A stretch of 48,734 nucleotides of DNA, from assembly GCA_015489465.1 (NCBI GenBank), contig WFZS01000045.1, positions 1 to 48,734 of the forward strand, given 5' to 3'. Below are positions 2,215 through 31,119 of the stretch, piece after piece. The position numbers and the translations under genes are program-made. Within the stretch, counting starts at the first letter, position 1, and every line of letters begins with the position of its first letter. The notes beneath the pieces were generated by a model. It was not told the DNA's origin. It ran no database searches and was given only the letters and a program-made list of their open reading frames with translations. This DNA is from Bacteroidales bacterium (lineage in GTDB: Bacteria > Bacteroidota > Bacteroidia > Bacteroidales > F082).

Positions 2215-5115
2215 CTACTCCAAAACAAGCCTTTTAACCTCTTGACGATCAGAAGAAGATAATTTAACAAAATAGACTCCCCTACTCCATTTTCCGGTAT
2301 TAATCTTAACACCGGTCGATTTATGTCCTATATGATTTTCATATAATTTTTTTCCGGTAACATCGTAAACTTCAACAATATTAAAACCTTCCTTTTCGTC
2401 AAAATTAACCGTAACTTCACCTTTTGCGGGATTAGGATAAATAATTATCCCGTTAATATTCCTTTTTTCGTTTTTAACGCCGGTATATTGTTCAACGGTT
2501 ACGTTATCAATGTAAAGTGCATTACCGAAAAAGTTAAACGACTCAAAGGCTATCATCACATTACTTTTTCCTATCCACGGCGACAGGTCAACAATTTTAC
2601 ATTCGCTCCCGTAACCTTTGCCACACCAGTCATCCAAAGTTTTCGGCACCCAAAACTTTGTGGTATCTGTCTGCATGCTGGTTGCAAAACTTCCGTTACC
2701 GTCGTCGCCGTAAGCGGCAATACGTGTCCATGTTGTTCCGCAATCATCCGAAATTAAAACTATCAACGAGTCTGTAGCATCATCAAACCGTTTTGCATAC
2801 GCATGTTTAAATTCCAAAACGGCATTCGACATATTTTCCAGATTAAAAGGAGGGGTTATAAGCCTGTCACGGTGCCCCCAATAAACATAATCGGTAAATC
2901 TAATTCTTGCCGAATGATTGCTGTTATAACCCACATCGGCCATTTCCCATGATCTTCCGTATTCCTCTTCTGGTTCCACATCTTCTATCTTCCATAAATC
3001 ATTCTCAATACCATTTTCGAAATTTTCATGATAATACGGCATAAAACCGCCGGCAGATACAAAGTCGAATTTGGTAGTGCTGGAAGAACCGTTAATATTT
3101 GATGCGGTTAATTTTACCGAATAATTACCGGGTTGATCAAATGAAACCACGGGATTTTGCGAATACATATCGGTTCCCTCTTCAAAAGTAACCGTTGAAG
3201 GAATAAATTCCCACTCCCAGCTTACAGGCATATAAGCGGTGGAATCGGTAAACTGCACCTTTTCACCCACACAAACGGCATTTTTATCCACATAAAAGTC
3301 AACATCGGGTAATACCGACGAACTTACCGTTATATAGTCCTCTTTCACAATAGTGTCGGAGCCCAATTCATTGGTAACTATTAATGTCACATCAAAAGTG
3401 CCATCGGTATTATATTGAATATTTTCCGGATTTTGATCCGATGATGTTTGAGGTTCGCCACCTTCGAATATCCATTGCCACTGATTGGGAATACCTTTTG
3501 ATAAATCGGTAAAAGATATTTTTTCGCCTTTTGGTACAACAGTGTTACCGGCTTCAAAGTCGGCAACGGGTTTATAAGCCACTTTAACGTATGCCCACCA
3601 AGTACTCCAAGTGTTTGCAGGAGTTTCGGCGTATTCTTGTATAACCCAAAAGTCGGCTTGATCAACAGGGTCCAAACATGTTGCGGAATAGTCTCCCCAA
3701 CGGTTTCTTGCTCCTCCGTAGGTTTTATTATATGTATCCAGTCCGTCTTTATATTGAAAATATGTTCTTACCGTACCTGCAGGGTCGGTATGATTCCGGT
3801 ATGAGTAGCCTGCACTGGCATAAATACCCGGTGAAAAGACACCGTGACCTATCATTACATCTTCATATTTATTAACGGCAATAGCCGGAAAAGCAAAATG
3901 AAAAGTATTTGTGGGATCTTCTATCCTGCCCCTGTCAATAATAACTCCTGTTGTATCCAAAACCCACCATTGAACAGCCGTGCGTTTCGGATTATTGGCA
4001 GGAAGAAAAATATGATGAACCGCCCATATTTTACCGTTTCTGTAAACAGCATTAACAAACCGTGTATCAACGGCGTTTATTTTTGCTTCTGTTCCCAATT
4101 GAGGTAAAAAATTACCGGCTTCGCCCGCCCAGTTTGACCACGGATCGGGCACTTGAATTTTACCTTGGTAAATAAATTGGGGATTATCAACATCACCTTT
4201 GATAATAAATTTTTTGATAGTCCCGGCACCGTTATCATTACCGTTGTCCGCCGCCAATAAATAAATATCGTTCAATGTCGTATCATAAGTAAATGTCGGC
4301 ACCAAAGTAAAACCGTCATTTGTTGCAAATCTGGTATAAGGCAAATCTTCGACACCGTTATAAGCAGCCTGTTTGTCATAAACAAATACGGTACGGTAAA
4401 AGTCACCTCCGAACATATTTCCGCATACTACAATCCATTTTTTATTAAAACCGATTGTAGGAAAGTCGAACCATGTAACGTCGGAAGGGTCGGTATTTAA
4501 CCAATACAAATCCCATTCTCCCAAAGGATCCGATGTTTTACTTACTCCCAAATATAATTTTGACAATTCATTATCGGGATGGCTCGGAGTAACAAAAATC
4601 CACCTTTCCGCATAAGGATCATATGTTATTTTAGGATCGAAAGTTCTGGTATGTCCGGGCATGTCTTTCCAAAAAAGTCCGAGTGACGTTGTAAATAAAT
4701 TATTTCCTTCCCTGTCGTGAACTCTTACTTGCGTATTCAATGTTGTCATAACATTATCGGGACCCACACCGCCCATAACGTCAGGAGGAATGGAATTTTG
4801 AGTATCTAGCAAACCGAGAAATGTTCTTTCCGGAGCCGGACTTTGCGATTTAACCCTGTTCGGTTTGTTAACAACGGCTTTTCTATCATCTTTAAAAATT
4901 ACTTTTCCTTCGTTTTTAAATTTATGGTGCTCGAAATCTTGTTCCGGAACTTTATAAATAACGGTATCTTTAAATTCCGATATATTTTTCAAATCTTTAT
5001 AAACGTTTATAGTTGCAGCTTTTTTAGCGTAACCGTTTGTTTTGTTTTTTGATTGCGGAACCGCAGCCACGGAGATTAAAAACAATACACCGAGGAAAAG
5101 TAATTTATATTTCAT
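2215..5115 (-). CDS. T9SS-secreted PKD-domain exoprotein
   Basis: 966-residue secreted or cell-surface protein. It has an N-terminal signal peptide (MKYKLLFLGVLFLISVAAV) and a ~450-residue region with repeated Trp/Asp-rich strands that looks like a beta-propeller, of family I do not recognise. Two PKD domains start near residues 517 and 602, a jellyroll-like choice-of-anchor J module (starting YYHENFENG) near 690, and the T9SS type A sorting domain near 888 (YPNPAKGEV, GVYFVKL, RLVLE end). The sorting domain implies export by PorSS and attachment or release at the surface. It is the second gene of an operon, 5 bp after the upstream T9SS gene, and shares the PKD-PKD-anchorJ-CTD layout with it. 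The role of the N-terminal part is unknown; adhesion or polymer binding is only inference. Confidence 0.88.
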   Translation of the reverse strand: MKYKLLFLGVLFLISVAAVPQSKNKTNGYAKKAATINVYKDLKNISEFKDTVIYKVPEQDFEHHKFKNEGKVIFKDDRKAVVNKPNRVKSQSPAPERTFLGLLDTQNSIPPDVMGGVGPDNVMTTLNTQVRVHDREGNNLFTTSLGLFWKDMPGHTRTFDPKITYDPYAERWIFVTPSHPDNELSKLYLGVSKTSDPLGEWDLYWLNTDPSDVTWFDFPTIGFNKKWIVVCGNMFGGDFYRTVFVYDKQAAYNGVEDLPYTRFATNDGFTLVPTFTYDTTLNDIYLLAADNGNDNGAGTIKKFIIKGDVDNPQFIYQGKIQVPDPWSNWAGEAGNFLPQLGTEAKINAVDTRFVNAVYRNGKIWAVHHIFLPANNPKRTAVQWWVLDTTGVIIDRGRIEDPTNTFHFAFPAIAVNKYEDVMIGHGVFSPGIYASAGYSYRNHTDPAGTVRTYFQYKDGLDTYNKTYGGARNRWGDYSATCLDPVDQADFWVIQEYAETPANTWSTWWAYVKVAYKPVADFEAGNTVVPKGEKISFTDLSKGIPNQWQWIFEGGEPQTSSDQNPENIQYNTDGTFDVTLIVTNELGSDTIVKEDYITVSSSVLPDVDFYVDKNAVCVGEKVQFTDSTAYMPVSWEWEFIPSTVTFEEGTDMYSQNPVVSFDQPGNYSVKLTASNINGSSSTTKFDFVSAGGFMPYYHENFENGIENDLWKIEDVEPEEEYGRSWEMADVGYNSNHSARIRFTDYVYWGHRDRLITPPFNLENMSNAVLEFKHAYAKRFDDATDSLIVLISDDCGTTWTRIAAYGDDGNGSFATSMQTDTTKFWVPKTLDDWCGKGYGSECKIVDLSPWIGKSNVMIAFESFNFFGNALYIDNVTVEQYTGVKNEKRNINGIIIYPNPAKGEVTVNFDEKEGFNIVEVYDVTGKKLYENHIGHKSTGVKINTGKWSRGVYFVKLSSSDRQEVKRLVLE

Positions 5116-29265: not shown

Positions 29266-29302
29266 GAAAAAACACCGGCTGAAAAAGTCGGTGTTTTTTT
29301 TT
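29266..29302 (+). terminator. Rho-independent terminator after acn
   Basis: ACACCGGCT (29272-29280) pairs with AGTCGGTGT (29286-29294) with one G:T pair and a 5-nt A-rich loop, then a run of eight T. Confidence 0.88.
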
Positions 29303-29336
29303 ATAAATATTTTATACTTAAACAGCCTTATTATTT

Positions 29337-29375
29337 TCACTATGTCAAAGATACAAATTGAAAGCAATTCACAAC
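29337..29375 (-). repeat. CRISPR-repeat-like sequence, copy 1 (orphan)
   Basis: Minus strand reads GTTGTGAATTGCTTTCAATT followed by TGTATCTTTGACATAGTGA. From memory this resembles the 46-48 nt repeats of Bacteroidota type II-C CRISPR arrays (GTTGTG..GCTTTCAA..GTATCTTTGA). The 3' end is degenerate, lacking the closing ACAAC. A second copy in the same orientation is at 30093-30130. There is no regular spacing and no cas gene in the window, so I do not call an array. Confidence 0.5.
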
Positions 29376-29376
29376 G

Positions 29377-29721
29377 TGCCGAAATGATAACCTGATTATT
29401 GCTGTAGCTTTTCATGTGAATACTTTTGAACAATTGGCTGCTTTTAACCAATATGGCTCTGCCTTTGCTTTGTCTTCGCTGTTTAGGGCTGTATTTTTCG
29501 GGATGTAAATCAACAGCCCGCTTTTGCCATTTTTTGGCAAATTTGTCTATCCATGCCTGGGCACGGAACCGGCTGCGGAAAAAGTTAACGGCGGTTTGAC
29601 CCAGTACCAGCATTAAAGCAGCCTTATTTTTGCGCCAATGCGCCTCAATGGTGGCAAAGGTATAAGGTCTTCCTTTATGTGTAAATGCAGGTTTCATTTG
29701 ACTTTTGTTGTATATTTGCAT
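29377..29721 (-). pseudogene. Truncated phage virion-morphogenesis (neck/tail-completion) gene
   Basis: The open frame here (stop at 29260, possible ATGs at 29778, 29721 and 29697) encodes a segment resembling the Mu gpG / HK97 gp10-like virion morphogenesis family. It shows NFFRSRFRAQAWIDKFAKKW, then a basic linker, then KGRAILVKSSQLFKSIHMKS and NNQVIIS. In relatives the pattern GRAILV-x-TGRL-x-x-SI is followed by V-x-IG-x-D-x-PYA-x-x-HN-x-G. Here the similarity stops right after VIIS, where the CRISPR-repeat-like sequence begins; the remaining ~35 codons are unrelated. No other phage gene is present, so this is a remnant. Confidence 0.6.
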
Positions 29722-29782
29722 TATTAAATAACCGGTTGTCAATGGGTATGACCTCGAAAGAGCGCTATTCCCTAACAATCGG

Positions 29783-29842
29783 AAAAAAAGCCGGCTGAGT
29801 GAAAGGGTAGGTTACGAACCCCCTGTTTCCTGCCGGTTTTTT
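29783..29842. other. Nested hairpin with U-tracts on both strands
   Basis: GCCGG (29790-29794) pairs with CCGGT-side bases at 29832-29837. Inside are AGGG/CCCT and GGTT/AACC stems around ACG, so the whole segment folds as one long interrupted hairpin. Runs of A on the left and T on the right would give U-tracts in either direction. It may be a bidirectional terminator belonging to the phage remnant, or a small structured RNA. The remaining bases between 29843 and 30157 hold repeat copy 2 and the second CRISPR-like repeat; no gene is seen. Confidence 0.45.
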
Positions 29843-29946
29843 CATTTTTTATGAATTAATATCCCGTTTCTAAATCCATCGCTGTGTTACCAATGACGTT
29901 GATTCAAAATACCTGTGTATTAATTTGATAAAAGAGTGGAAGGATT

Positions 29947-30090
29947 GTCACGGTGAGCAGCCTGCCGAATGGCAGGTAAGTCGAACCGTGTGTGCGTTGG
30001 CTTCCCCTGCCACCTTTCGACGCGGCTCAATGTGACATCCCACTTACCACGTATGGCGTCATTTACAAATTGTTGAAAATTTTACTTCCC
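29947..30090. repeat. Palindromic extragenic repeat, copy 2
   Basis: Related to copy 1 at 2022-2168. The left arm starts GTCACGGTGAGC, then a nested CCTGCC/GGCAGG hairpin, then GTCGAACCGTG. The right arm is the complement GTCACATTGAGC..GTCGAAAG at 30014-30036. The tail CGTCATTTA.. at 30057-30090 matches the tail of copy 1. AATGACGTTG at 29892-29901 and the inverted AATGACG at 30057-30063 could be terminal inverted repeats. The nested hairpin is in the opposite arm from copy 1. Confidence 0.65.
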
Positions 30091-30092
30091 CC

Positions 30093-30130
30093 TCACTATG
30101 TCAAAGATACTAATTGAAAGAAGCTACAAC
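30093..30130 (-). repeat. CRISPR-repeat-like sequence, copy 2 (orphan)
   Basis: Minus strand GTTGTAGCTTCTTTCAATTA then GTATCTTTGACATAGTGA. The last 28 nt match copy 1 at 27 of 28 positions; the 5' part is diverged with one gap. Same orientation, with about 720 bp between the copies. Confidence 0.5.
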
Positions 30131-30157: not shown

Positions 30158-30598
30158 TCAACGATCGGTAACCGGAGGATCAATAACAGGCTTTTCGTTG
30201 TTTTCATAACACCATTCTAAATAGTCTTCATATTGTTTTTCTAACTGTTCGTATCCCTTTTTAAAGGAGGCCCAGAGTTCTTCCGCTTGTTTATGCCCTT
30301 CAAATAACCTGTGGTGTTTGGCAATATAAATATTATCCGTTTTTTTATCACCAACATGGTTATCTCCGGATTTCCGGTGTATTATCGTAGAATTTTTTAT
30401 AACCCTATCCAATTCATTAACAAATTCTTCCGCCTTAGTCCAAAATTGATATTCAGGATTGTTTTTCAATGCTTCGGCATCTCTCTTTTCCGCCTTTTTA
30501 ATTAACGGATTCATTATTGAATTAACCAATAAAATCCAGCCTTTAATTAATACCCAAACAAAAAAGACAAACAATAATATGCCTAAAAATATTTCCAT
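30158..30598 (-). CDS. Small membrane-anchored protein, tandem paralogue A
   Basis: 146 residues from the ATG at 30598. The frame extends to 30679, but the -7 box at 30604-30611 and the shared start context with paralogue B favour 30598. One N-terminal helix (IFLGILLFVFFVWVLIKGWI) anchors a charged, helical cytoplasmic region with NIYIAKHHRLFEGHKQAEEL near 88 and GYEQLEKQYEDYLEWCYENN near 113, ending in DPPVTDR. No known family recognised. The downstream partner B (30758-31084) shares TM, NIYIAKHH, KGYE and DPPVT motifs, so the two are a tandem duplication. It lies next to the phage/repeat patch, and function is unknown. Confidence 0.7.
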   Translation of the reverse strand: MEIFLGILLFVFFVWVLIKGWILLVNSIMNPLIKKAEKRDAEALKNNPEYQFWTKAEEFVNELDRVIKNSTIIHRKSGDNHVGDKKTDNIYIAKHHRLFEGHKQAEELWASFKKGYEQLEKQYEDYLEWCYENNEKPVIDPPVTDR

Positions 30599-30603
30599 TA
30601 CTC

Positions 30604-30611
30604 CAAATATA
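30604..30611 (-). promoter_or_regulatory. -7 element of paralogue A
   Basis: Minus strand TATATTTG matches TAnnTTTG and ends only 5 bp before the ATG at 30598. It is part of a 22-bp segment (30600-30621) duplicated exactly at 31085-31106. Confidence 0.5.
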
Positions 30612-30757
30612 CAAAATTTACAGCAAGCCGGAATTAACAGTTTATCACTGATATAATTTCGAATACGGCAAAATGACAAACTTTTTTAAGCTGAAAAAAA
30701 TCCTATTGAAATTGTATTAAACAAATTTCCATTAAAAGTGGAAATTACAAAAAGTAT

Positions 30758-31084
30758 CTAATCAAGATTATATCCTTTAAGACGATTGGTAACAGGTGGA
30801 TCCACTAAAGGCTTACGGTTATTTTCGAAGCACCATTTTAAATAGCCTTCATGTTGTTTTCCTTAATGCTCATAACCTTTACGAAAAGATTCCCTTAGTT
30901 CCTCCGCTTTTTTATGTTCTTCGATTTTTCTGTGGTGTTTAGCAATATAAATATTGGCTTGAGGTTCTTTATTTTCATAATACTCGATAACAGGATCAAA
31001 AATCATATTTATTAAACGGATCCACCATTTTGCAAACACTTTGAGAATTAACAAGCCTAATATTATAAATATCAATAATAACAT
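30758..31084 (-). pseudogene. Tandem paralogue B, interrupted by an in-frame TAA
   Basis: Translation from the ATG at 31084 gives a TM segment (LLLIFIILGLLILKVFAKWW), then PQANIYIAKHHRKIEEHKKA and RESFRKGYEH, followed by TAA at 30863-30865. The frame continues beyond with GKQHEGYLKWCFENNRKPLV and DPPVTNRLKGYNLD to a TAG at 30758-30760, matching the C-terminus of paralogue A. At the stop position A has TTA (Leu), so a single T-to-A change explains the interruption. An in-frame ATG at 31099 adds five residues but lies upstream of the -7 box. B also lacks ~25 residues of A in the middle. The 5' part could still make a 73-residue membrane peptide. Confidence 0.75.
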
Positions 31085-31088
31085 ACTC

Positions 31089-31119
31089 CAAATATACAAA
31101 ATTTACGAACAAAAAGCAA
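31089..31119 (-). promoter_or_regulatory. Promoter of paralogue B
   Basis: Minus strand TTG (31117-31119), 20-nt spacer, TATATTTG (31089-31096), ending 4 bp before the ATG at 31084; the transcript would be leaderless or nearly so. Confidence 0.5.

Follow-up and report, generated by a model that had tools for sequence, protein, structure and literature searches.

Two degenerate type II-C CRISPR repeats flanking a composite interval in a Bacteroidales genome: probable remains of a decayed array

The type II-C CRISPR arrays of Bacteroidota (Rfam RF01362; Riemerella CRISPR1; those of F. columnare and F. psychrophilum) are built from 46-nt repeats that start with GTTGTG and hold an internal TTG + TAnnTTTG promoter motif. 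In Flavobacterium their transcription has been ascribed to promoters within the individual repeats, TTG standing at −33 (PMC8092290; PMC10309648); the authors of the Riemerella study applied a general promoter tool to the repeats and found none (PMC5006608). An IS inside a II-C array has been reported in F. psychrophilum (PMC10309648). Repeats without matching cas genes are found in orphan or degenerate arrays (Riemerella CRISPR2 and Enterococcus faecalis CRISPR2), and solitary repeat units are known in phages (PMC10651486). The locus described here has the repeat length, the GTTGTG start and the promoter motif of the first group, with both copies on the minus strand, but it consists of two damaged copies 717 bp apart with no normal-length spacers, in a genome without detected cas9, type II cas1–cas2 or tracrRNA. 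It resembles the orphan arrays in having repeats without matching cas genes and differs from them in that they keep regular spacers, whereas here the array structure is gone.

The window (the whole stretch analysed, positions 1–48 734 of contig WFZS01000045.1) is part of a 209-contig draft genome of 2.74 Mb (G000; 98.3% complete, 3.3% contamination); as the genome is a draft of this kind, it may possess a contig with an undetected cas9. Each end of the contig is more than 18 kb away from both repeat copies, which are therefore not contig-edge artefacts. A repeat profile was built from one consensus repeat per relative, and 100 first-order Markov windows served as the null. Arrays were sought in 100 relatives with a core pattern, and weaker repeat remnants elsewhere in the own genome were sought by pattern alone. 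The features of the locus are given in Table 1.

Table 1. Features at and around the two repeat copies (window coordinates)
Feature	Position	Strand	Basis
Terminator-like hairpin behind aconitase	29267..29299	.	14-nt arms, 93% complementary, 5-nt loop
CRISPR repeat copy 1, type II-C, full 46 nt	29330..29375	-	Profile match, identity to G039, RF01362
Phage virion-morphogenesis (Phage_tail_S-like) gene, 5' part	29376..29698	-	52% identity to a G043:C40 gene
Structured-RNA-like element	29699..29848	+	Best-conserved part 29723-29842; identity in G001 and G003; fold
Multi-copy interspersed palindromic repeat	29888..~30104	.	62 matching rows in own genome
CRISPR repeat copy 2, damaged	30093..30130	-	27/28 with copy 1; exact core; interspersed-repeat junction

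The first-pass annotation had described two same-orientation direct repeats about 720 bp apart and identical at 27 of 28 positions, and a repeat finder confirmed them (29337–29364 and 30093–30120). The copies are separated by 756 bp from start to start, with ∼717 bp between the segments, and in both the CRISPR-repeat reading is on the minus strand. Copy 1 exceeds the bounds first given for it and spans the full 46 nt of the relatives' repeats. It scored 60.8 bits against the repeat profile (best of the 100 random windows, 10.9) and is identical at 41 of 46 positions to the consensus of a live array in G039 (consensus GTTGTGAATTGCTTTCAATTTGTATCTTTGAAATATTGAACACAAC; copy 1 GTTGTGAATTGCTTTCAATTTGTATCTTTGACATAGTGAAAATAAT). 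Rfam model RF01362 (CRISPR-DR49) aligned to it end to end over model positions 1–47 at 28.4 bits, below the gathering cut-off of 41, which the live G039 repeats exceed (44.3). The Bacteroidota type II-C identity that the annotation had suggested was thus borne out by the relatives' live arrays, by RF01362 and by the profile, and the lack of CRISPR-repeat similarity that it had named as a refutation was not observed. On these alignments copy 1 is a type II-C repeat, decayed mainly at its 3' end. Copy 2 matches such a repeat in the core alone: its 5' part is altered and has lost one base, and its 3' end has been replaced by the interspersed repeat. Its ungapped profile score is only 0.8 because of the deletion and the replaced 3' end, and the RF01362 search did not report it.

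The core CTTTCAATTNGTATCTTTG occurs exactly at the two copies and nowhere else in the window. A pattern search of the whole genome (2.74 Mb) allowing up to three mismatches returned these two copies and no others, and the 5' half of the repeat, at the same tolerance, has no copy in the genome beyond copy 1. The repeats are therefore not a generic interspersed element, and the genome-wide scatter that would have spoken against a CRISPR origin is absent. Two copies 717 bp apart do not make an array in the usual sense of at least three regular repeats with ∼30-nt spacers. The only bases at which both copies differ alike from the relatives are CATAGTG; as these overlap the interspersed-repeat end in copy 2, they do not prove cleanly that both copies descend from a single array.

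Promoter-like motifs persist in both copies: TTG-N18-TATCTTTG in copy 1 and TTG-N17-TATCTTTG in copy 2. Chance alone would yield the pattern 1.6 times per window, so that by itself the motif is weak evidence; its weight comes from its place in the consensus of live repeats. Transcription from a repeat-embedded promoter is accordingly possible in the window copies. A transcript from copy 1 would meet, within ∼70 nt, the hairpin behind aconitase, which lies downstream of copy 1 on the minus strand too and is accompanied by T runs on either strand.

True arrays of this repeat were found in six relatives (G006, G036, G039, G083, G092 and G098), with a period of 75–76 nt made up of the 46-nt repeat and a spacer of ∼30 nt, and all six have an HNH_4 (Cas9) match and Cas1. 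Disrupted or degenerate array-end repeats are seen in G006 and G088. The tracrRNA with GCAAYTCACAATAAGGATTATTCC was read in G003, G006, G021, G083 and G088, and by pattern also in G004; in the relatives it consists of an anti-repeat lacking one base, followed by AATAAGGATTATTCCG. The full-genome search for a II-C array and cas9 that the first-pass annotation had proposed found neither in the own genome, where no protein matched TIGR01865 or PF13395. The tracrRNA pattern, present in G003, G004, G006, G021 and G088, is absent there, and type II cas1–cas2 was not detected. No cas gene relics were found in the window, the tblastn matches being to translated array repeats. The single cas1 detected in the genome lies on contig C104 beside Cmr6 and a CRISPR-associated primase–polymerase, and this locus is type III-B (a fragment). 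The end of contig C104 translates as QMCIRDS and looks like a sequencing-adapter artefact. In G004, a sister species, the exact tracrRNA match (C245, 4053–4076) stands in a genome with no HNH_4 Cas9 match and no repeat found, and reflects either an assembly gap or an orphan tracrRNA.

The interval between the copies is composite and not one phage piece: it comprises part of a phage gene, an RNA-like element and a host repeat of an interspersed family. The truncated phage virion gene noticed at first reading was confirmed. Its fragment extends from the start codon to within 8 nt of copy 1, the alignment ending near 29383 while the homologues run on. The best homologue (52% identical) is set among phage-like genes in G043; nine more distant relatives were found in IMG/VR, and the PF05069 match is weak and below the cut-off. 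The suggestion that phage DNA had recombined or integrated at repeat-like sites describes this one junction and leaves out the RNA-like element and the interspersed repeat. The palindromic repeat of the first-pass annotation is likewise partly upheld: the multi-copy interspersed repeat is real (62 matching rows in the own genome, this locus included), but an unrelated single-copy element at 29723–29842 had been lumped in with it. Several other copies of the interspersed family end in CTTCCCCCTCAC(T/C)ATG or similar. The window copy ends in CTTCCCCCTCACTATG and continues without a gap into the CRISPR repeat, which itself reads TCACTATGTCAAAGATAC, so that the eight bases TCACTATG are common to the interspersed-repeat end and the 3' end of copy 2. 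As they belong to both repeats, joining at a microhomology is suggested. Members of the palindromic family are often arranged in tandem and often lie at contig ends, their right ends vary (CTCAC(T/C)ATG(AC)), and the family is possibly a substrate for recombination.

The RNA-like element consists of a GNRA-capped hairpin module followed by a terminator-like hairpin with a T run, with a −7-like TATATTTG just on its 5' side. Among 173 family genomes it was found at 87–90% identity in G001 and G003, of the same genus (L086, 206–416; L101, about 4112–4290 on the minus strand), and its terminator-like half alone in G205; an exact pattern retrieved only three other GTDB records. In G001 and G003 the module is in tandem, a solo CRISPR repeat lies just upstream on the opposite strand, and an isochorismate synthase gene is oriented convergently with the element. 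Fourfold-degenerate sites in aconitase differ by 59–63% between the window species and G001/G003, so the identity of the element implies constraint or recent transfer. Its predicted fold is ∼4 standard deviations more stable than shuffled sequences, and across five modules 97.5% of 16 pairs are kept, with three pairs changed on both sides; as the sequences are few and related, this covariation is suggestive only. A known or widespread RNA was rejected as its identity: no match was obtained in Rfam, in IMG/VR or, with a covariance model and stricter filters, elsewhere in 393 genomes of the order. Nor is the element a tracrRNA, since its pairing with the repeat is no better than that of shuffles (97/300), whereas a real tracrRNA pairs better (0/300). 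It might be a small RNA gene that stood beside the leader-distal end of the ancestral array, or one that moves horizontally.

Among the options first offered for this locus, that of a relic left by array decay has the strongest support. The two copies are probably surviving, degenerate repeats of a type II-C array, the Cas9, tracrRNA and spacers having been lost from the lineage. In the working array each repeat would have paired with the tracrRNA in the crRNA and would also have acted as the promoter of the spacer that follows it (−33 TTG, −7 TATCTTTG). Once the system was lost, recombination and insertion would have fragmented its remains: an interspersed host repeat with TCACTATG at its end may have been joined to copy 2 through the same eight bases, and the phage gene fragment would have come to abut the 5' edge of copy 1. 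The pair should confer no Cas9 immunity now. That an array stood at this very position is something we infer, because the aconitase neighbourhood is not common to the relatives: it differs among the ten loci compared, which have no downstream locus in common, and the empty site that was to be looked for in related strains, like an intact array at the same locus, was not found. Such a relic is most likely an ordinary outcome of CRISPR–Cas loss and a known kind of thing. That a solo repeat adjoins the RNA-like element in G001 and G003 too tells against decay, as simple random debris does not predict it.

This pairing of repeat and RNA element across three species is the only part of the locus that could be more than debris. 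A solo repeat might have been kept for its embedded promoter or its sequence, facing away from the RNA element and forming with it a regulatory or RNA-producing unit in this genus; we consider this unlikely. Repeat and element have the same relative orientation in G000, G001 and G003, the element is far more alike than the aconitase fourfold sites would suggest and shows covariation, and the promoter motif is retained in both window copies. Yet the G003 repeat has an altered −7 box (TATCTTTC) and an altered 5' end, ∼320 nt of phage DNA lie between repeat and element in the window, where no promoter box can be recognised upstream of the element, and the outer flanks differ between loci. The conservation of the element may also be due to horizontal transfer, given the half element in G205, and a repeat common to G001 and G003 is weak evidence of selection because their fourfold divergence from each other is low (12–19%). 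Distinctly unlikely is the stronger form of this idea, in which the repeat and an undescribed structured small RNA make up a conserved divergent unit of the genus, a non-immune exaptation after the loss of Cas9. Were the pair functional, a CRISPR repeat would have been recruited as a promoter or regulatory site.

The remaining alternatives concern the phage junction and the strand on which the copies are read. One over-long acquired spacer was rejected, as phage, RNA-like and host-repeat DNA make up a mosaic between the copies, which is hence not one acquired piece. The same mosaic makes aberrant acquisition very unlikely, whether Cas1–Cas2 inserted a long piece or whether a 30-nt spacer of phage origin next to copy 1 recombined with phage DNA and so extended the homology; the fragment does stop within 8 nt of the repeat–spacer boundary, where integration acts, but the original spacer is not visible and other mechanisms yield the same junction. 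It is scarcely credible that repeat and phage gene entered together in a prophage bearing a Racr-like mimic against Cas9. As with the solitary repeat units of phages, an isolated repeat directly adjoins phage-derived DNA here, but one truncated phage gene is present rather than a viral genome or an intact prophage, no separate upstream promoter was identified, and the homologous phage gene in G043 runs past the cut. There are, moreover, two copies in a host chromosomal context with a host interspersed repeat in the interval, and the G001 and G003 repeats stand beside the element without the phage gene. The core has no exact match in 2.9 million IMG/VR contigs, and the phage and plasmid collections searched gave none, so that the repeat mimic or anti-CRISPR unit of the first-pass annotation finds no support in them. 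Its tracr-like RNA fares no better, and the reading of one or both copies as tracrRNA genes on the plus strand can be virtually discounted. Although the Riemerella anti-repeat TGAAAGCAATTCACAA (PMC5006608) is part of the complement of copy 1, both copies carry the uninterrupted core in place of a missing-base anti-repeat with AAGGATTATTCC continuation, both have similarity to the 3' half of the repeat, unlike anti-repeats, and the AATAAGGATTATTCCG continuation of the relatives is absent from the own genome. A tracrRNA comprises anti-repeat, nexus and terminator, and no AATAAGGATTATTCC follows either repeat.

Array decay therefore remains the preferred explanation, and the locus would then be a readable case of a II-C array falling apart, with the immune genes kept in a sister species and other relatives and the last repeats persisting beside interspersed repeats and phage debris. 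Spaced II-C repeats also occur in G088 (C14, 1–1310), at distances of 254 and 839 bp, where they bracket small toxin–antitoxin-like ORFs and a flank of ∼190 bp is duplicated. The solo repeats of G088 that lie ∼4 kb from aconitase were set aside as a parallel to the window; they stand at a contig start, are probably an array end and were judged coincidental. Beyond copy 2 in the window, two small ORFs lie next to each other on the minus strand (30158–30679 and 30863–31099); they are paralogous, a stretch of 174 nt being 76% identical, have a hydrophobic segment at the N terminus and match no family convincingly.
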